NCBI RefSeq assembly: GCF_001583495.1
Contig: NZ_LQAQ01000093.1
Coordinates: 434,001 to 498,000 of the forward strand
Reading direction: 5' to 3'
Length of the DNA: 64,000 bases
Source: Flammeovirga sp. SJP92
GTDB taxonomy: Bacteria; Bacteroidota; Bacteroidia; Cytophagales; Flammeovirgaceae
This document shows positions 33,497 through 42,533 of this stretch, piece by piece; positions within the stretch are counted from its first letter, which is position 1; every line of letters begins with the position of its first letter. Both the position numbers and the translations under genes were made by a program. The notes beneath the pieces were generated by a model that ran no database searches, was not told where the DNA came from, and saw only the letters and a program-made list of their open reading frames with translations.

Positions 33497-34282
33497 ATGT
33501 TTACTTTTAAACCTGCAGTACAAAAAAAATCGAAACACCCTCTTATACTCATACATGGAGCTTTGTTCAATGGAGAGGCTTGGAGGGGTAACTTTTTAGA
33601 CTTTTTTGCGGAACTTGGTTATGACACCTACGCCATTCACCTGAGTGGCCACCGTGACAATGAAAGTAAACTCTTTTTGAACCTATATGGTTTAGATCAA
33701 TACACTGAAGACGTTATTAAGCTGATCACCTCATTTGATGAAAAACCAATTCTTATTGGTCATTCTATGGGCGGTCTTGTTACCCAGCTTGTAGGTCAAA
33801 AAATTTCTCTTCAAGCCGCTGTTTTATTGGCGGCAGTTCCTCCTTTTGGTGTTTTCAGATCGATGTCAGAATTTTTCCTAACAGCACCATTGAGTTGGAG
33901 TAAATTTGCCGTTTCAGCGATATTCCCAATTGGAAAATACTTTGATACGGAACCTCCCGAAGGGATTTACACAACTATGCCTTCTCTTGAAGTCAGACAA
34001 CACGTCAGCAAAAATATGCAAGGAGAATCAATACGTGCTTTACTTGAAATGATATGGAGAGACTTTGAAATCGATGCTTCCAAAGCACATTTCCCAATGG
34101 CTCATATTGGTTTTAGAGATGATAAAATTATTTTTCCTGAAGACGTAGAAAAAACGGCCGAATTTTACGGTCAAAAAGCAAAAATATTCGAAAATCGAGC
34201 ACATGCTTTTATGTTTGAGCCTAATTGGAAAGAGGTTGGAGATTACATTAAAGAATGGCTTGATGAAAATAACGAAGCATAA
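33497..34282 (+). CDS. Alpha/beta-hydrolase fold protein
   Basis: 261 residues with the alpha/beta hydrolase pattern: HPLILIHGALFNGEAW (oxyanion-hole region, residues 14-29), nucleophile Ser90 in LIGHSMGGLV, and a likely catalytic His in FENRAHAFMFEP near 240. An acidic residue in FRDDKIIFPEDVEK probably completes the triad. There is no signal peptide, so it acts in the cytoplasm. The substrate is unknown; esterase or lipase-like activity is likely. It follows the response regulator by 17 bases and may share its transcript. Confidence 0.82.
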   Translation: MFTFKPAVQKKSKHPLILIHGALFNGEAWRGNFLDFFAELGYDTYAIHLSGHRDNESKLFLNLYGLDQYTEDVIKLITSFDEKPILIGHSMGGLVTQLVGQKISLQAAVLLAAVPPFGVFRSMSEFFLTAPLSWSKFAVSAIFPIGKYFDTEPPEGIYTTMPSLEVRQHVSKNMQGESIRALLEMIWRDFEIDASKAHFPMAHIGFRDDKIIFPEDVEKTAEFYGQKAKIFENRAHAFMFEPNWKEVGDYIKEWLDENNEA

Positions 34283-34321
34283 TAAAATTGTATCATAGAC
34301 CTGTCTATATTCAAACTTACT

Positions 34322-35170
34322 TTAATTCATTATTTCTTCCAATCCATTATAATAATCAACGATTTGAATAAGATCTTCTCTAATTTTATACTGAAGGCCT
34401 GATTTTCTCATAAAATCATTGAGTTCATCCTCCTTTTCTCCAAAAATCTTTAAGAAAGACTTTCTTTTGATATTCAAATCAAAAATTACATTCCCTTCCA
34501 ATACTAAATACAGTCTTTCCTTAAGTTTATAACTATAATATACATCAGCTTGGTTTCCTCGGTAAGAATGGACATTATTTTCCATTTCTCGTCTCCTATC
34601 AGGATCAAAATGAGGGTTGGTTCTATGAATCGTTTTCAATAAATAGGGGTAAGCAATAATCCCTACTTTTCCTTCTGTCACAATTTCAAATATTCCTGTA
34701 GCAGGGTGTTCATCTCTATAATAACGCTCCGCATTTACAAAATGATGAGGTACTGTAATCTCCTGTTCGTTTTCATCTACAGTGTGAGCAATAAAATCAA
34801 ACTCTTCAATTTCATGTTGTTCAAAAATTAAAGTAGTAGTATCTTTCATACCTTCCCCTCCATACAACTCAATATCTTCAATCTGTAAGACTTCCACCTG
34901 ATCTCTCTCTAGATCATAAAGCAAAGAAACACCTTTGAAAGCCTTCCCATTTTTCAACAACAGATTGCCAACCTCCCACTCTGAATGATAAAAAACCATA
35001 CTGTCTCTCTCATTCTGAGATTGATTTTCCAAGTCTTTTGTAGCAGCATGAATCATGTCGTTCTTCTTTTTTTTCTCTTTTTTCTGAGCAAAAAGAAGGG
35101 TGCCTGATACTAAAAATAACAATGTGAATATAGAGAGTCTGTACATTTTTGAATTAAGTCTTGGTTTCAT
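34322..35170 (-). CDS. Exported protein of unknown function
   Basis: About 282 residues from the ATG at 35170, whose N-terminus MKPRLNSKMYRLSIFTLLFL makes a good signal peptide ending LLFAQ. The ATGs at 35197 and 35146 are alternatives. After a lysine-rich stretch (KKEKKKKND) the chain is a mixed alpha/beta domain with LLKNGKAFKGVSLLYDLERDQVEVL and a C-terminal helical part (IREDLIQIVDYYNGLEEIMN). I recognise no family. It probably resides in the periplasm. Convergent with the hydrolase gene; tpiA is upstream on the same strand but separated by a terminator. Confidence 0.65.
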   Translation of the reverse strand: MKPRLNSKMYRLSIFTLLFLVSGTLLFAQKKEKKKKNDMIHAATKDLENQSQNERDSMVFYHSEWEVGNLLLKNGKAFKGVSLLYDLERDQVEVLQIEDIELYGGEGMKDTTTLIFEQHEIEEFDFIAHTVDENEQEITVPHHFVNAERYYRDEHPATGIFEIVTEGKVGIIAYPYLLKTIHRTNPHFDPDRRREMENNVHSYRGNQADVYYSYKLKERLYLVLEGNVIFDLNIKRKSFLKIFGEKEDELNDFMRKSGLQYKIREDLIQIVDYYNGLEEIMN

Positions 35171-35253
35171 TTCAATAGTAGCCACCGTTTCCGGCAATTG
35201 GCTGAATCACATTATTAATATACTGAAGATAGGGAAGAAAACAAGTTTTTGGA

Positions 35254-35290
35254 CAAAAAAAAGAGGTTGAACTATGAATAGAACAACCCC
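35254..35290 (-). terminator. Intrinsic terminator of tpiA
   Basis: On the minus strand GGGGTTG (35284-35290) pairs with CAACCTC (35263-35269) including one G-U pair, followed by eight T. It starts 81 bases after the tpiA stop. Confidence 0.7.
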
Positions 35291-35370
35291 CTTAAACACG
35301 TTTATCTTCAATGCGTAACGTGAGCAAAGAGAAAAGGTATTTCTCTGTACTTTAACGCTTCGAGTCTAAA

Positions 35371-36132
35371 TTAGTATGATTTTGAGATTTCGATGAAGTC
35401 TCTAGCTACTAATGAAGCACCACCGATCAAACCACCGTCAACGTCAGGTTGAGCGAATAATTCTTGAGCGTTGCTTGGTTTAGCAGAACCACCATATAAG
35501 ATAGAAGTAGCATCAGCAACTTCTTGACCATATTTAGCAGCAATCATATCACGGATATCTTTGTGCATTTCTTGAGCTTGTGCAGATGTAGCTGTTTTAC
35601 CAGTACCGATTGCCCAAACTGGCTCGTATGCTAAAACTACTTTACCGAAGTCCTCAGCAGAAAGGTGGAATAAACCTTCTGATAATTGCTTCTCTACAAC
35701 TTCTTTTTGAGTACCTGCTTCACGCTCCTCTAATACTTCACCGATACAGAAGATAGGCAACATACCGTTAGCGATTACCGCATCAGTTTTAGTAGCTAAC
35801 ATAGCATTAGACTCACCAAAATACTCACGACGCTCAGAGTGACCCAAAATCACGTAATCAATACCATAAGAAGCTAATTGCTGTGCAGAAATTTCTCCTG
35901 TGTAAGCACCTTTTGGCTCTGTGTAGCAGTTTTGAGCACCAACAAATACATTAGCAGTATCACCTACCAATGACTTTACCTTGCTTAAATGAATGAAAGG
36001 AGTACACATAATAACTTTAACGTCTGACGGAGTCTCGTCTCTTGCGATATTCACTACTTCTGATGCTAAAGATTCAGCGTCTTCCTTAAGAAGATTCATT
36101 TTCCAGTTACCTGCAACAATTTTTTGTCTCAT
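35371..36132 (-). CDS. tpiA: Triosephosphate isomerase
   Basis: 253 residues with every hallmark: substrate-binding Lys11 in AGNWKMN, His98 in [13 protein letters not shown], catalytic Glu170 in [12 protein letters not shown], and the phosphate-binding C-terminal part [14 protein letters not shown]...GLIGGASL. It interconverts dihydroxyacetone phosphate and glyceraldehyde 3-phosphate in glycolysis. It is a single-gene unit with its own terminator and a -7-like box at 36175-36182. No anomaly. Confidence 0.98.
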
Positions 36133-36174
36133 GATGTAAATTTTCTTTTATAAGATGAATTTTATAATCAGTCG

Positions 36175-36182
36175 CGAATATA
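36175..36182 (-). promoter_or_regulatory. tpiA: Predicted -7 element of tpiA
   Basis: On the minus strand this reads TATATTCG, seven of eight positions matching TATATTTG, 43 bases before the tpiA start codon. Confidence 0.4.
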
Positions 36183-36295
36183 CATACCTAGAGCTATTTT
36201 GAAAATGAGTTTCGTCATACTCAGGTAGATAGTTGAGGGTGGATTTAGTGAATTATTCTGAATAAAAATGAATTTCAATATTCTAATTCGGTTAT

Positions 36296-36359
36296 TTTTC
36301 CATATTATGGAAAATATGTTTCATTTTGAAACTTAAAAATATGCCAAAAAACATATTTT
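36296..36359. promoter_or_regulatory. Overlapping palindromes upstream of the small RNA candidate
   Basis: TTTTCCATA (36296-36304) and TATGGAAAA (36306-36314) form a perfect 19-base palindrome. It overlaps a second dyad, AAAATATGTTT (36311-36321) with AAACATATTTT (36349-36359), also perfect over 11 bases. Inside that lies GTTTCA with TGAAAC. They sit 46-115 bases before the RNA candidate and 164 bases before tpiA. They may be operators for either, or a structured element. Confidence 0.5.
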
Positions 36360-36404
36360 AACTCATAAATAACTGATTATTAATAATTTAACTAATTTTT
36401 CATT

Positions 36405-36536
36405 TTATGGCACAGTAAGTGAATAAAGATTAATGGGTAAAGAAACATAGGTTAGTCACCTATTGTATGGCATGATACACCAGTAACATTAACCAGCTGT
36501 GGAAAGACACTTGAAATATTTCAAGTGTTTTTTTTT
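36405..36536 (+). ncRNA. Candidate structured small RNA, family unknown
   Basis: An orphan terminator here follows no gene on its strand, and the bases before it fold in a nested way. CACAG (36411-36415) pairs with CTGTG (36497-36501), and TTAATG (36430-36435) with CATTAA (36487-36492). Inside are hairpins ATAGGT/ACCTAT (36447-36463) and TGTAT/ATACA (36464-36479). The terminator hairpin ACACTTGAA/TTCAAGTGT with nine T follows six bases later. Frames inside stop after three to five codons, so it is not coding. It lacks the signatures of SRP RNA, tmRNA and RNase P RNA. A 6S-like RNA cannot be excluded. The 5' end is estimated. Confidence 0.55.
36507..36536 (+). terminator. Strong orphan intrinsic terminator
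   Basis: ACACTTGAA, a four-base loop (ATAT) and TTCAAGTGT form a perfect stem followed by nine T. The minus strand lacks a T-run, so it works on the plus strand, where the only thing upstream is the RNA candidate. Confidence 0.9.
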
Positions 36537-36634
36537 ATCCTAATTTTTTGAAAGATAAGACATTTAGAAAAAGATGTAAAGTTGAAGCCTTAAAAGATAA
36601 AGACATACTACGCCTCCTTCTACACAATCTGCCC

Positions 36635-36716
36635 AAACAAAAAAAGGCCATCCATCGGATAACCTTTTTCACTATATAATCTAACTACTGTCTATACTAC
36701 TTTTTCATTCTATCTA
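36635..36716 (-). repeat. Intergenic repeat R1 ending in a terminator-like hairpin
   Basis: It aligns with 43823-43908 over about 85 bases in the same orientation. The shared block CTAACTACTGTCTATACTAC is identical, and both share AAACAAAAAAAGGC, ATCC and GGATAACCT. The GGCCATCC/GGATAACC part forms a hairpin which on the minus strand is followed by seven T. Each copy may thus be the conserved 3' end of a minus-strand transcript. The region 36540-36634 shows nothing. Confidence 0.6.
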
Positions 36717-36816
36717 TCTCTAAAAACGGCAGTTAGTGATCTTCGACTTTCAAATTCTTACTATAAAGTATTAAAATCTGACTTTTTCATTTATAATCTA
36801 ACAAAATACACAACTC

Positions 36817-36847
36817 AAAAAAAAGGCTTCACTTTTTAAGTGAAACC
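36817..36847 (-). terminator. Terminator downstream of the decayed gene
   Basis: On the minus strand GGTTTCACTT (36838-36847) pairs with AAGTGAAGCC (36825-36834) with one mismatch, followed by eight T. It lies 21 bases after the last stop of the pseudogene at 36868. Confidence 0.75.
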
Positions 36848-36867
36848 TCATTACATCTCTCTGTTGT

Positions 36868-37202
36868 CTAATTTACTGGATCAATATTTTTGAGAGTGTT
36901 TTTCTGTCCCATTTTGGATCCATAAAATTTAGATGCCACTATCATGATACGCTGGGACAGAATATATTGGGTTGGTCTGGTTAGCTTCTATTTCAATTGC
37001 ATAAACAATGTCAACTGACGTATTCATCAGATCATCTTTTCTGTTGAACTAGAAGCGTGAGGGGTATTCATCATGATATTTATATTCTCATTAGTTGAAA
37101 CCAATGTTGGATATTCTTTCATAGCATTCACAGTGATTTTAATTTCTATCCATCAAAATCAATCTGAACGAGTTGGATGTAGGACCTAACACAATATTAG
37201 GT
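36868..37202 (-). pseudogene. Decayed protein-coding remnant
   Basis: The minus strand shows protein-like pieces in changing frames: PNIVLGPTSNS, then EIKITVNAMKEYPTLVSTNE with NINIMMNTPHASSSTEKMI. MNTSVDIVYAIEIEANQTNP with IYSVPAYHDSGI follows, then ASKFYGSKMGQKNTLKNIDP ending at TAG. Each is cut by a stop or frameshift. A good terminator follows 21 bases downstream. I read this as the C-terminal remnant of a lost gene of unknown family. The remaining gap up to 37372 contains nothing clear. Confidence 0.4.
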
Positions 37203-37372
37203 TTTAATCACGCACACTATAAAAACAGACATGGGTAGGTTTTAGTTCATTTCAACAGAATTTAAATTGAAAAAATTATTTTTTTATTGATTACCTACAG
37301 AAATAATTCACATATCAAACAACCTTTTAAAGCGGTAAAAGCTCTATGATAAGTAGTATAATGAGGGAATAT

Positions 37373-37391
37373 GGCTTATTTAAGCCGTTTT
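37373..37391 (+). terminator. Weak hairpin with T-run before the second kinase gene
   Basis: GGCTTA (37373-37378) and TAAGCC (37381-37386) enclose two T and are followed by GTTTTTAT. The loop is tight, so GGCTT/AAGCC may be the real stem. It sits 55 bases before the kinase ATG and could be a leader attenuator or the end of an upstream transcript. Confidence 0.35.
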
Positions 37392-37440
37392 TATCAAGGC
37401 TTTAGCTCTTTAAAAAGTTTCTTTTTCTTACTTTACTCAC

Positions 37441-38505
37441 ATGAATAAGTTTGTTTCCAAAAAGCTTCAATTGCGTGAATTGGTGAAAATGGCACTAATT
37501 ACCTCACCTATCATAGCTGTGTACACTATCAGCCCAATGGTGATGCATATTGTATCTATTCCTTCTTTAGAAAAAAGTTTAACAACGCTGAATCACTTCA
37601 ATCTAATGAAAGCACTGATAGGAGTATCAGTAGTCATCTTGATGCTGTGGATGCTAAATATCTGGCTTTTTCACTTTTTAGATGATCAGCTCAATAGAAA
37701 AATCAATAAAAACTTGAAGTACTTATTTTCATTTTCTATCATGTTCCTTTTTTTTATTCTGCTTAAAGAAAAACGGGCACAGCACAATACCATTGACTTT
37801 GGCGTATTTGGCTACTATCCTTTAATAGTCACCACCGCCAATAATACTTTTATCTTGATTCTTTACCGATTGATAACCGGAAAGCATGAGAAAGCGAGGT
37901 TAGAATTAGACAAAACACGTTTGGAATTAGCACAATACGTTACACAGCAGGAGCAATTGAAAAATAAAATTCATCCCCACTTTATTTTTAATGCCTTGAA
38001 TACTCTGAAACTTTTAATTAAAAAAGAAGAGAAAGTGGCTGAAGATTATCTGGTCCGTTTGTCTGCTTACCTAAGATTTTCCATCACAGAAACCGCCAAA
38101 GATCAAGCACTGATAAAAAATGAATTGGAGTTCTGTAAAAATTATATCGAGCTACAAAAAGTAAGGTTTGCCAACTCTATTCAGTTTCAAAACCTTCTTC
38201 CAACTGAAGTTATTAATAACGAGTACCTGCCGGTAGTCACACTTCAATCTTTGGCTGAAAATGCCATAAAACATAATGCCTTCACAAAGCACAACCCGCT
38301 GATCATACAAATACAGCAGAATGAGGACCACTCCATCTCTTTCATTAATAATCTTATTCCGAAGAGAAACAATGAAACGACCACAGGCACAGGCTTGAAT
38401 AACCTTAAAAAGCGGTTTAAGCTCTTAGGAAATGATGAACCTGTTGTACTTCATAACATCAAAGACAAGCAGTTTGAAGTGACTTTTAACACATTGAAAA
38501 AATGA
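37441..38505 (+). CDS. LytS-type membrane sensor histidine kinase (second locus)
   Basis: 354 residues. Four membrane helices (about 18-38, 50-72, 88-105, 118-143) precede a coiled-coil linker. The phospho-acceptor box is KNKIHPHFIFNALNTLKLLI with His180. The N-box SLAENAIKHNAFTK and the G-box GTGLNNLKKRFKLLG complete the ATPase part. The stop codon overlaps the start of the response regulator gene by four bases (ATGA). The two are translationally coupled and precede a TonB receptor operon that they probably control. The ligand is unknown. Confidence 0.92.
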   Translation: MNKFVSKKLQLRELVKMALITSPIIAVYTISPMVMHIVSIPSLEKSLTTLNHFNLMKALIGVSVVILMLWMLNIWLFHFLDDQLNRKINKNLKYLFSFSIMFLFFILLKEKRAQHNTIDFGVFGYYPLIVTTANNTFILILYRLITGKHEKARLELDKTRLELAQYVTQQEQLKNKIHPHFIFNALNTLKLLIKKEEKVAEDYLVRLSAYLRFSITETAKDQALIKNELEFCKNYIELQKVRFANSIQFQNLLPTEVINNEYLPVVTLQSLAENAIKHNAFTKHNPLIIQIQQNEDHSISFINNLIPKRNNETTTGTGLNNLKKRFKLLGNDEPVVLHNIKDKQFEVTFNTLKK

Positions 38506-39257
38506 ATATTGTAATTATAGAAGACGAGTATTTGATGGCTGATGAACTTGAATCTTTAATCTTAGAATACAGTTCAGAACATACTATTGTCACAAAACTC
38601 ACAACAGTTGATGAATCAATTGAGTACCTCAAAAGTAACCCAATGCCTGATTTATTCTTCTCGGATATACAGCTTCCTGATGGGCTAAGTTTTGAGATTT
38701 TTCAAGAAATAAAATGCGAGGTTCCAATTGTTTTCTGCACCGCATACGATGAATATGCTTTAGAAGCTTTCAAAGTCAATGGCATTGACTACATACTTAA
38801 ACCCTTTGACAATAATACTATTATTGAAACCCTTCGTAAAGTGGACCGGATCATCAATCACCATGTCCCACAGGATTTTAATTCTATTATTGCTGAACTT
38901 TCGGGTACTCCAAAAAAGAACATCAAAAAGAATATTCTCATTTTTAAAGGAGAAAAAATTATTCCTGTTAACACCCAACAAATCGCATTAATTCATCTAG
39001 ATTCAAGCGTGACTTATATCTATACTTTTGATGGAGAAAAATATGCATCTGACCAGTCTTTGGATACCTTGGAATCTAATTTGAATGCTGATTTCTATAG
39101 AATCAACAGGCAATTTTTAGTCAATAGAAATGCCATCAATCATGTATCAAAATACTTTGCACGGAAACTGCTGGTAGAAACTCAAATTGAAATTCATGAA
39201 GACATCATTGTGAGTAAAGCAAAAGCAAGCGATTTTTTAAAATGGCTACAGGACTAA
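38502..39257 (+). CDS. LytTR-family response regulator (second locus)
   Basis: 251 residues. Receiver domain MNIVIIEDEYLMADELESLI with Asp55 in LFFSDIQLPDG and Lys in IDYILKPFDNN. The LytTR domain (about 145-250) carries IALIHLDSSVTYIYTFDGEKY and FYRINRQFLVNRNAINHV. The gene overlaps the kinase gene by four bases. Between its stop and the receptor gene are two CCCGTTT sites spaced 21 bases, the spacing used by LytTR proteins, so this regulator likely drives the downstream receptor. Confidence 0.94.
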   Translation: MNIVIIEDEYLMADELESLILEYSSEHTIVTKLTTVDESIEYLKSNPMPDLFFSDIQLPDGLSFEIFQEIKCEVPIVFCTAYDEYALEAFKVNGIDYILKPFDNNTIIETLRKVDRIINHHVPQDFNSIIAELSGTPKKNIKKNILIFKGEKIIPVNTQQIALIHLDSSVTYIYTFDGEKYASDQSLDTLESNLNADFYRINRQFLVNRNAINHVSKYFARKLLVETQIEIHEDIIVSKAKASDFLKWLQD

Positions 39258-39384: not shown

Positions 39385-41709
39385 ATGAATATTAATTCTT
39401 TCTTAACTATCATCTTACTTACCATCTCATCGATCTCTCTTGGCCAGACTAAATACACCCTAAGTGGTCAGATCAAAGATGCTTCAAATGGAGAAGACCT
39501 CCCATTTGCTACGGTAACAGTAAAAGAACTAAAAGGAGTTGGTGTAACCGCCAACACTTACGGGTATTATTCATTGAGCTTGCCTGAAGGAAATTATACC
39601 GTTATTTATCAATACATTGGATATGATGTGATTGAAAAATCCATTGAACTCAATAAAAACATTACAATCTCTTTGGAACTTCCTACATCTGCTCAAAACT
39701 TGGAGGAAGTGGTTGTCACTGCCGAAAGAGAAGACCGAAATATCACTTCAAATGAGGGAAGTGTGACCAAAATTGACACTAAAGCCATCAGAGAGTTACC
39801 CACTTTTGGTGGTGAGGTTGACATTATAAAAGTAATGCAAACACAGCCAGGTGTTAAAGCTTCAGGCGAAGGTGGATCAGGCTTTTATGTACGTGGAGGT
39901 GGATTGGACCAAAACCTTGTACTTCTTGATGAAGCACCTGTTTATAACCCTTCGCACCTTTTAGGTTTCTTTTCTGTTTTCAATGGAGATGCCATCAAAG
40001 GGGCCACAATGTACAAAGGGGGTATGATGCCCGAATATGGCGGACGTACTTCTTCTGTTTTAGACATTAGAATGAAAGATGGAAATGCTAAAGACCTCTC
40101 TGTGACAGGTGGAATTGGTACCATTGCCTCAAGATTGACGGTCGAAGGTCCTATTGTAAAAGACAAGGGATCATTCATGATTTCTGGCCGAAGAACCTAT
40201 GCAGATTTATTTCTTGGCCTTTCCAATGATCCTAGTTTCAGTAATTCGAGTCTTTATTTTTATGATCTCAACCTAAAGGCCAACTATAGAATTACTGAAA
40301 AAGATAGAATTTTCATTTCAGGTTATTTTGGCCAAGATAAATTAGGAATGGATGGCTCGGTCAATATGGACTATGGCAATGCAACAGGAACACTGCGCTG
40401 GAATCACGTTTTTTCTAGTAAACTGTTTTCCAACACTTCCTTTATATATAGCAATTATAATTACGAATTTGGTTTTGGTGCAGATGAAGACAAAATTGGT
40501 TTGGAATCGATCATTAAAGACATCAACATCAAACAAGATTTCTCTTTTTATGCTTCCACAAAACATACAATCAAGTTTGGATTCAATGCTATTCACCACA
40601 CCATAGAACCAGGTAACCTTTCTGCGGGATCTAACACAGGCATTAACCCTCAAGATTCTGAAAAAAAATACGGTATCGAAGGTGCTATTTATATTCAAGA
40701 TGAATTTAAAATCTCAAACCGATTAAGTATCAATTACGGTCTTCGTTATTCATTATTCCAAGGTATTGGAACAGGTACAGAATATCAATTCAATGATAAA
40801 GGTGAAGTGATTGGGGCGAAAGAATATGGTGATGGTGAAACAATGCAATATTATGGTGGTTTTGAGCCTCGTTTATCAGCCAACTATATCATCAATCCTA
40901 AAAGTTCTGTGAAATTAGGTTACAACAAGAATTACCAATACTTGCATATGCTGAGTAATTCAACTTCTTCTTCCCCAACAGACACATGGATCATGAGCTC
41001 TAATAATGTGAAACCACAGGAAGCTGAGCAAATTTCATTGGGTTATTTCAGAAACTTCAAAGACAATACTTTTGAAACTTCAGTGGAAGCGTACTACAAA
41101 GACATGAAAAATGTTATTGATTATAAAACAGGTGCCAATGTTTTCTTAAACGATCAGTTAGAAGGTGATTTAGTTTATGGCAAAGGAAGAGCGTATGGTG
41201 TGGAATTTATGATCAAAAAGAACAAAGGCCGACTTACAGGATGGTTAGGATACACATTATCAAGGTCTGAAAAGCAATTTGATGAAATCAATAACGGTGA
41301 CTGGTTCGCCGCCAGACAAGATAGAATTCATGATATCAACTTGGTGGCCATCTACAAGATCAATCCTAAATTGACCTTATCGGGTAACTTCATTTACTAT
41401 ACTGGAGATGCAATAACATTCCCTTCTGGAAGATATGAAGTGGATGGAAAAGTGATTCCTTATTACACTGAAAGAAACGGTTATAGAATGCCTGATTATC
41501 ATCGTTTAGACTTAGCTTTGACATGGATCAGAAAGAAAACAGATAAGTTTGAATCCAGCTGGAACTTCTCCATTTACAATGTTTATGGAAGAGAAAATGC
41601 CTACACCATCAGCTTTGAACCAAGCGAGGAAGATCCAAATACCACAGAAGCTGTACAATTAGCCTTATTCAAATGGGTTCCTTCGGTTACTTACAACTTT
41701 AAATTTTAA
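39385..41709 (+). CDS. TonB-dependent outer-membrane receptor with carboxypeptidase-regulatory-like domain
   Basis: 774 residues. Signal peptide about 1-20 (SISLGQ), then the regulatory-like domain TLSGQIKDASNGEDLPFATV. The plug includes LEEVVVTAERED, PGVKASGEGGSGFYVRGGG, NLVLLDEAPVYNPSHLLGFF and KGGMMPEYGGRTSSVLDIRM. The barrel runs to the C-terminal VPSVTYNFKF ending in Phe. It imports a ligand that cannot be named from sequence; the family includes siderophore and other small-molecule receptors. A DUF4249 lipoprotein gene follows after 14 bases, a pairing common in Bacteroidota. Control by the preceding LytTR system is likely. Confidence 0.93.
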   Translation: MNINSFLTIILLTISSISLGQTKYTLSGQIKDASNGEDLPFATVTVKELKGVGVTANTYGYYSLSLPEGNYTVIYQYIGYDVIEKSIELNKNITISLELPTSAQNLEEVVVTAEREDRNITSNEGSVTKIDTKAIRELPTFGGEVDIIKVMQTQPGVKASGEGGSGFYVRGGGLDQNLVLLDEAPVYNPSHLLGFFSVFNGDAIKGATMYKGGMMPEYGGRTSSVLDIRMKDGNAKDLSVTGGIGTIASRLTVEGPIVKDKGSFMISGRRTYADLFLGLSNDPSFSNSSLYFYDLNLKANYRITEKDRIFISGYFGQDKLGMDGSVNMDYGNATGTLRWNHVFSSKLFSNTSFIYSNYNYEFGFGADEDKIGLESIIKDINIKQDFSFYASTKHTIKFGFNAIHHTIEPGNLSAGSNTGINPQDSEKKYGIEGAIYIQDEFKISNRLSINYGLRYSLFQGIGTGTEYQFNDKGEVIGAKEYGDGETMQYYGGFEPRLSANYIINPKSSVKLGYNKNYQYLHMLSNSTSSSPTDTWIMSSNNVKPQEAEQISLGYFRNFKDNTFETSVEAYYKDMKNVIDYKTGANVFLNDQLEGDLVYGKGRAYGVEFMIKKNKGRLTGWLGYTLSRSEKQFDEINNGDWFAARQDRIHDINLVAIYKINPKLTLSGNFIYYTGDAITFPSGRYEVDGKVIPYYTERNGYRMPDYHRLDLALTWIRKKTDKFESSWNFSIYNVYGRENAYTISFEPSEEDPNTTEAVQLALFKWVPSVTYNFKF

Positions 41710-41723
41710 AAGACTGCTTAATT

Positions 41724-42533
41724 ATGAAATCAATACAACTTATCGTTTCTGCAATTATTATTGCTTTTCTGGTCACCGCTTGTGAAAAAGTGATTGATGT
41801 GGATCTAAAAGATGCGGCTCCCAGTATTGTCATTGAAGCCGTACTGATGGAAGGTGAAAATGACTTTGTAGTAAAAATCTCTAAAACGGCTCCCTATTTT
41901 GACAACTCTCCATCGGAAAAGATTGACCATGCCAATGTTACGTTAAAATTTAATGATGAAGAAATTGATATTCCTAATTCTGGAAATGGCATTTATTCTT
42001 TGCCTGTCAATGCTCTCATCAATACAGAGTATCATCTAGAAGTCAATGTTGATAATGAAACCTACAATGCGTCAACCACAATGCTTGATAAAGTAATGAT
42101 CGATACCATTTATTCTGAATTTGAAGAAGGTTTCGGCCCTAGAGAATCGGGTTATTATGTCTACATCAAGTATACTGATCCAGGAGATGTTGAGAACTTT
42201 TATCGATTAACGCATTCTTTAAACGGAGAATACCAAAATACTGAAAGCGATCTGAGAGTTTTCAATGATCTAAGAAACAACGGTAACCAGCCAAAAACTT
42301 CTCTAGGATTTAAAGTATTTGAAGAAGGAGATGTAGTAGACGTAAACCTGATTCATTTTGATGAGTCCTCTTATGATTACTTCAGTTCCTTAAATGATAT
42401 TATTGGTGGCAATGGAGGACCAAGTGGAGGTGCTGCCGCGCCAGGCAATCCCTTATCCAACTGGTCGAATAATGCACTAGGTTATTTTTCTGCCTATAAT
42501 TACGATACTGCCACCATCATTATTGGCGAATAA
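41724..42533 (+). CDS. DUF4249 lipoprotein, partner of the TonB receptor
   Basis: 269 residues with a lipoprotein signal (AFLVTAC, lipid-attached Cys20). The DUF4249 signature is CEKVIDVDLKDAAPSIVIEAVL, then a beta-sandwich part with VVKISKTAPYFDNSPSEKI and NEYHLEVN-like strands. DPGDVENFYRLTHSLNG lies in the middle. A Gly/Ala-rich loop (GGNGGPSGGAAAPGNPLSN) precedes LGYFSAYNYDTATIIIG. The protein is expected on the outer membrane beside the receptor 14 bases upstream, probably helping ligand capture. Function is inferred from pairing only. Confidence 0.88.
   Translation: MKSIQLIVSAIIIAFLVTACEKVIDVDLKDAAPSIVIEAVLMEGENDFVVKISKTAPYFDNSPSEKIDHANVTLKFNDEEIDIPNSGNGIYSLPVNALINTEYHLEVNVDNETYNASTTMLDKVMIDTIYSEFEEGFGPRESGYYVYIKYTDPGDVENFYRLTHSLNGEYQNTESDLRVFNDLRNNGNQPKTSLGFKVFEEGDVVDVNLIHFDESSYDYFSSLNDIIGGNGGPSGGAAAPGNPLSNWSNNALGYFSAYNYDTATIIIGE

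Follow-up and report, generated by a model that had tools for sequence, protein, structure and literature searches.

A free-standing gene of about 100 nucleotides in Flammeovirga most likely encodes an undescribed regulatory RNA, one of a family of three

Background

To our knowledge, the biology of small RNAs (sRNAs) in the Bacteroidota is known mostly from gut Bacteroides. In Escherichia coli, OmrA and OmrB are neighbouring paralogues that have the same 5' end and different 3' parts, and both use Hfq. The Qrr RNAs of Vibrio are stand-alone sRNAs with a TGGCA-N7-TG element and activator sites upstream; the qrr1 gene of V. fischeri, for instance, has TGGCA-N7-TGC together with LuxO sites (PMC10162802). 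Several Qrr paralogues are found in some species, and the same is true of Pxr, an sRNA of about 108 nt in Myxococcus and its relatives that apparently has a sigma-54 promoter (PMC5568312). The FopS/GibS RNAs of Bacteroides are multicopy sRNAs with no long open frame, a conserved 5' part, and a terminator at the end; FopS/GibS works with RbpB, and according to the paper the FopS structure has been deposited in Rfam (PMC11697453).

The stretch of DNA analysed here (the window, 64,000 nt) comprises positions 434001-498000 of contig C93 of Flammeovirga sp. SJP92 (genome G000, 8.49 Mb, rated 100% complete). It contains what is most likely an undescribed, free-standing gene for a regulatory RNA of about 100 letters; this gene, copy A, is one of a three-member family (A, B, and C) in Flammeovirga. 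Copy A resembles Qrr in standing alone and in having a TGGCA-N7-TG element with putative activator sites upstream, and the family resembles it in its paralogues. However, the element of A is without the final C and is present in copy A only, no Rfam model matches, no Hfq has been found, and the phylum is another one. With Pxr, copy A has in common its approximate length, a sigma-54-like element, and paralogues, but Pxr lies beside a sigma-54-dependent regulator and has three stem-loops, whereas A lies beside tpiA and has one small hairpin and a terminator. Like FopS/GibS, the copies are multicopy Bacteroidota sRNAs that lack a long open frame and have a conserved 5' part and an end terminator. 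FopS, however, has 14 copies rather than three, and its promoters are of the housekeeping type; A, in turn, carries a 40-nt block and an additional hairpin at the 5' end. (That A, B, and C give 0 Rfam matches sets them apart from FopS only if FopS is among the 4227 models used.) Finally, A and C recall OmrA/OmrB in their common 5' end and different 3' parts, but OmrA and OmrB are neighbours and Hfq users, whereas the Flammeovirga copies lie at three sites. The family is taken here as a new one within a known kind, the multicopy sRNAs.

Three loci with fixed neighbours

A preliminary description of the window had called the locus an orphan. It is not: BLASTN within G000 finds two sister loci, copy B on contig C99 (87% identity over 103 nt) and copy C on contig C37 (97% over 31 nt), the other match being that of the terminator to itself, inverted. 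Each of the three copies is present in 9/9 Flammeovirga genomes, and a motif search for the 5' module returns 31 places, which are the 27 A, B, and C loci and 4 others. The neighbouring genes were followed across the 9 genomes using the G000 copies as queries. The gene tpiA is divergent from A in 9/9 genomes; B is flanked in 9/9 by an ArsR-family gene and, directly downstream on the same strand, by a gene that we take to be hemC; and C is flanked in 9/9 by a dprA-like gene and a GNAT gene, the gene after C being on the opposite strand. Pfam searches with the G000 neighbour proteins support the TIM, ArsR, DprA, and GNAT assignments.

Among the nine A copies, mean pairwise identity is 0.98 in module 1, 1.00 in module 2, and 0.91 in the terminator (these parts are listed in Table 1), whereas the spacer upstream has a value of 0.51 and the downstream sequence one of 0.39. 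For TGGCACAGTNNNTG the value is 0.86, and for the two dyads of the control region it is 0.90 and 0.87.

Copy A lies, as the preliminary description had it, in a gene-poor stretch with no same-strand gene ahead of its terminator: the interval 34282-37441 contains no + strand ORF of at least 80 aa, and 36132-37441 contains none of this size on either strand. The first ORF that lies 3' of A on its own strand begins about 900 nt away in G000. A histidine kinase (PF06580) and a LytTR response regulator are encoded as a pair at 37441-39257, and the genes after this pair encode a TonB-dependent receptor (39385-41709) and a DUF4249 protein (41724-42533). LytS/LytTR was considered as a partner of A and rejected, a LytS-type kinase being encoded in the examined A flank in just 4/9 genomes.

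The frames within the RNA are short in all nine A copies, which bears out the earlier remark that they soon stop. A small ORF in copy A was considered and rejected, since no closed frame in the nine copies exceeds 7 codons and the longest frame that stays open, of 13 codons with a GTG start, runs into the terminator. In the 40-nt block of the A and B copies, silent change is not in excess. Judged from their sequences, the copies are genes that apparently do not code for protein; their ends and modules are conserved, and they have their own terminator and no conserved coding frame.

The arrangement at B raises a different explanation, namely a cis-acting leader (an attenuator or riboswitch) that ends transcription ahead of a gene, with B as the leader of hemC. 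In 9/9 genomes B, which ends in a terminator, does immediately precede hemC in the same orientation. However, neither A nor C has a conserved same-strand gene directly downstream: the next ORF is distant and the LytS-type gene inconstant at A, and the gene that follows C has the opposite orientation. In addition, inspection of the sequences gave no alternative antiterminator pairing. We consider a cis-acting leader very unlikely, and the copies are treated below as free-standing genes.

Table 1. Features of copy A and its control region (window coordinates)
Feature	Positions	Strand	Remarks
Dyad 1, TTTTCCATATTATGGAAAA	36296..36314		putative activator (enhancer) site
Dyad 2, GTTTCATTTTGAAAC	36318..36332		putative activator (enhancer) site
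Putative sigma-54 -24/-12 promoter element, TGGCACAGTAAGTGA	36408..36422	+	TGGCA-N7-TG in 9/9 A copies
sRNA gene, copy A (predicted transcript)	36434..36536	+	start predicted; end is the T-run
Module 1: 5' GGGTAAAGA and hairpin	36435..36463	+	ATAGGT (36447-36452) / ACCTAT (36458-36463); common to A, B, and C
Module 2: 40-nt block	36466..36505	+	39/40 positions identical among the 18 copies of A and B; C is without the block
Intrinsic terminator	36504..36536	+	stem 36504-36516 / 36519-36531; T-run 36528-36536

Anatomy of the RNA

The homology of copy A to B and C begins at about 36434, which would be the 5' end of the RNA; the left end of 36405 given in the preliminary description should be moved to this position. 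Model R1 matches copy A at 104/104 positions, over G000:C93:470432-470536 (window 36432-36536). Module 1 consists of the 5' end GGUAAAGA, which is present in 27/27 copies, and a short 6-bp hairpin; GGTAAAGA is likewise found in 27/27 copies. All 18 copies of A and C have one and the same hairpin sequence. The stem of B is longer, and the B copies of three genomes (G002, G007, and G008) have an altered hairpin in which pairing is kept; double changes that keep the pairs are found in G007 and G008. The sole variable site of module 2 distinguishes A, which has C there, from B, which has T. This block is a candidate target- or protein-binding region; its predicted accessibility is mixed, not uniformly single-stranded.

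The 3' half of copy C is different, with its own hairpin and terminator, and in G000 the predicted fold of this copy (L047:2000-2098, contig C37) is much more stable than the folds of its shuffles (z -7.19). Beyond module 1, C has a second hairpin and a strong terminator, and its 3' end faces the convergent GNAT gene. GACTAA, which occurs within the 3' strand of this second hairpin in G000, is the complement of TTAGTC in the loop region of module 1; this complementarity is kept in part only in other species.

The preliminary description had reported a nine-T intrinsic terminator preceded by helices in nested order. The terminator is there, its hairpin (36504-36531) leading into nine T, and 36503-36536 folded alone gives a z of -5.85, with 0/200 shuffles as good. 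The nested multi-helix fold fails on conservation and on fold statistics. From the predicted start to the terminator (36435-36502) z is +0.70, with 156/200 shuffles as good, and with the proposed outer helix included (36411-36502) it is -0.64, with 43/200 as good. The z of -2.62 obtained for 36405-36540 is mostly that of the terminator, because the body without it is not unusually stable. Among the proposed helices, TTAATG/CATTAA is complete in 4/9 A copies (one of the four has an additional T within it) and has lost at least one pair in 5/9; CACAG/CTGTG is complete in 8/9. In neither helix is there a double change that compensates. The predicted start is downstream of the left arm of CACAG/CTGTG, and CACAG is part of the conserved TGGCACAGTnnnTG element, which resembles a sigma-54 promoter. 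As for the two inner hairpins, the first (ATAGGT/ACCTAT) is borne out by the paired changes in the B copies of two genomes. The second is invariant among the A copies, which consequently are no test of it, and a G-C pair of this hairpin reads A.C in the B copies.

When the first hairpin and the terminator are taken together, 98.4% of cells in the alignment pair (shuffled mean 92.3%), figures that are flattered by a structure drawn from the same sequences; sliding the partners lowers pairing to 36-54%. Both sides have changed in 7/21 pairs (shuffled mean 3.6), the hairpin covariation resting on the B copies of G007 and G008, and there are 29 double-changed cells (shuffled mean 11.1), which represent fewer independent events because the terminator signal is in large part a single A/B split. 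The hairpin and terminator have no excess of additional standard pair types (14 vs 13.9). An alternative fold, GGUUA/UAACC, is the predicted minimum in some A copies; it is broken in the B copies of G007 and G008 and was rejected.

These data bear on the question of whether the locus is a mere terminator or a decayed repeat, with no RNA function. It could be argued in favour of this idea that the hairpin at 36504-36531 is not in the output of a simple terminator scan. However, the complete identity of module 2 against 0.39-0.51 around it, the fixed synteny, and the paired changes are unexpected for neutral DNA, and exactly three fixed copies are unlike a mobile repeat. A functionless terminator or repeat is extremely improbable.

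Promoters and control region

The distance from TGGCA-N7-TG to GGG is 27 bp in 8/9 A copies and 28 bp in 1/9. In the usual sigma-54 numbering, which relates the -24/-12 element to +1, this spacing would place +1 at 36434-36435, where the homology to B and C begins. Against a sigma-54 promoter, the final C of the -12 TTGC is found in 0/9 A copies, and exact TGGCACN5TTGC is not enriched in genome G000 (2 places vs 6 for the reversed control). The sigma-54 consensus is given as TGGCAC and TGC with 5-7 nt between them (PMC12316311). The gene rpoN is present in 9/9 Flammeovirga genomes. In some A loci a second TGGCACA (L008, L012) or an inverted TGCCA (L001, L011) lies between the dyads and the promoter; given these extra copies, TGGCAC could be an operator half-site instead of a sigma-54 box.

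The two dyads are positioned about 75 bp upstream of the promoter element, about 100-140 bp before the predicted start, and they look like enhancer sites. They are 22 bp apart, start to start, in 9/9 genomes, and the distance from dyad 2 to TGGCA is 89 bp (7/9) or 91 bp (2/9); in a single genome (L009) dyad 2 is imperfect. For dyad 1, exact TTTTCCA-N5-TGGAAAA is found once, at A, in 7/9 genomes and nowhere in the other 2. Both dyads together, in exact form, are found in 6/9 genomes and only at A.

Other promoter-like elements precede the sister copies: TANNNTTG in 9/9 B copies and TATATTG in 9/9 C copies, each ending 4-5 nt ahead of GG(G)TAAAG. The housekeeping -7 element of Bacteroidota is TAnnTTTG, and the putative B and C elements resemble it.

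Identity and range

The preliminary description had thought of an undescribed regulatory RNA and had named an Rfam covariance search as a check. That search covered the window and five further loci with A, B, or C copies and found no family at its gathering score; this result stands beside the three syntenic paralogues in 9/9 genomes and the paired changes in support of the idea. Five weak Rfam matches, all below gathering scores, were taken as chance. In the titles and abstract openings of the papers listed as matches in a literature search on Flammeovirga, sigma-54, and Bacteroidota sRNAs, this RNA is not described.

A second suggestion had been a divergent 6S RNA, which binds RNA polymerase. 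Like A, 6S RNA has a stand-alone stable RNA gene, and in G000 none is recognised by either RF00013 (control positive in 5/14 genomes) or RF01685 (a weak negative, the control being silent), so that the seat of 6S RNA in this genome appears empty. Nevertheless, A, B, and C match no covariance model, form several paralogues, and carry, in A and B, a 40-nt block that is fixed by sequence. Moreover, the supported structure, a short hairpin followed by a long near-invariant stretch and a terminator, lacks the long, rod-like hairpin with a central bubble. The probability that the locus is a 6S RNA is close to nil.

When 291 genomes of the order were searched with the model, 18 contained matches with E up to 0.1, and nine of these 18 are Flammeovirga; as far as sequence comparison can tell, the family is clearly found only in these 9 Flammeovirga genomes. 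The nine matches outside the genus agree with the block at 15-22/40 positions, while shuffles of the best of them (n=200) agree at a mean of 17.7/40 and a maximum of 21; L067 has 12 nt and L072 10 nt in common with module 1. The nine are read as terminators with chance matches. The best of them, L064 (G190:C1:1383-1486), comes from another family of the order and has an E of 2.6e-5, better than that of some C copies, with agreement at 22/40 block positions; at this locus TTAACCAGC and GGAAAG precede a terminator that closely follows a coding frame. This borderline match is probably chance and possibly a distant relative. In a collection of 84,980 species, the exact 19-mer CACCAGTAACATTAACCAG of the block is found in 13 stretches, 8 from Flammeovirga and 5 from unrelated taxa; the one of these five that was inspected, from Aquimarina, is without flanking similarity on reading. 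With regard to phage carriage, two exact patterns gave 0 stretches in a viral contig collection.

Mode of action

We think it rather probable that A, B, and C form a family of trans-acting sRNAs in a genome with no detectable Hfq, with A predicted to depend on sigma-54 and an activator and B and C on the housekeeping sigma factor. Copy A would be transcribed from 36434-36435 by sigma-54 RNA polymerase, and an activator bound to the two dyads, about 100-140 bp upstream, would restrict its synthesis to one signal. B and C would be transcribed constitutively by RNAP with the housekeeping sigma factor. The RNAs would then act in trans: they would pair with mRNAs through the common GGUAAAGA end and through the 40-nt block, and this pairing, with no help from Hfq, would change the translation or stability of the mRNAs. 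Targets would be common to A and B, and C, whose 3' half is different, would have in common with them just those that are reached via the 5' end. The Hfq model PF17209 is found in 0/1 in G000 (control positive in 5/14 genomes), and any chaperone would therefore be another protein, perhaps one like RbpB of Bacteroides (PMC11697453). Ordinary seeds are shorter than a stretch of 40 almost invariant nt, and this counts against the explanation, as does the mixed accessibility predicted for the block.

A search for the antisense of one 15-nt segment, with at most 2 mismatches, gave 184 places in the 9 genomes vs 244 for the reversed control among the matches listed; 18 of the 184 are the sRNAs themselves. 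In G001 alone the search gave 33 vs 16 for the control, again among the matches listed. G000 and G005 have an antisense match of 18 nt, some 455 nt into a coding frame that is common to the two, and it was judged to be chance.

The length and near-invariance of the block, together with the lack of an antisense excess for this one 15-nt segment, would also suit a protein-binding site, such that the RNAs titrate an RNA-binding regulator in the manner of CsrB and do not pair with mRNAs. Titrating RNAs usually carry a repeated motif, but none is apparent on reading inside this RNA, and C has the 5' module without the block. Protein titration is unlikely.

A bolder possibility, somewhat less likely than not, is a circuit of the Qrr type in a member of the Bacteroidota that has no Hfq. 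In such a circuit A would be gated by sigma-54 and by a dedicated activator with an exact site at A only, while its sisters would be made constitutively, and the signal would shift the balance of the RNAs. If this possibility is true, RNAs with the same 5' end would compete for the same targets or for the same RNA-binding protein.

Implications

The family is compact and genus-wide, with clear modules, near-invariant sequence, and three different putative promoters, and this would make it tractable for the study of Hfq-free sRNA action. It also lets one ask whether sigma-54 and enhancers control sRNAs in Bacteroidota. The three loci are short and lie in a culturable marine bacterium, where they can be deleted and their roles tested.
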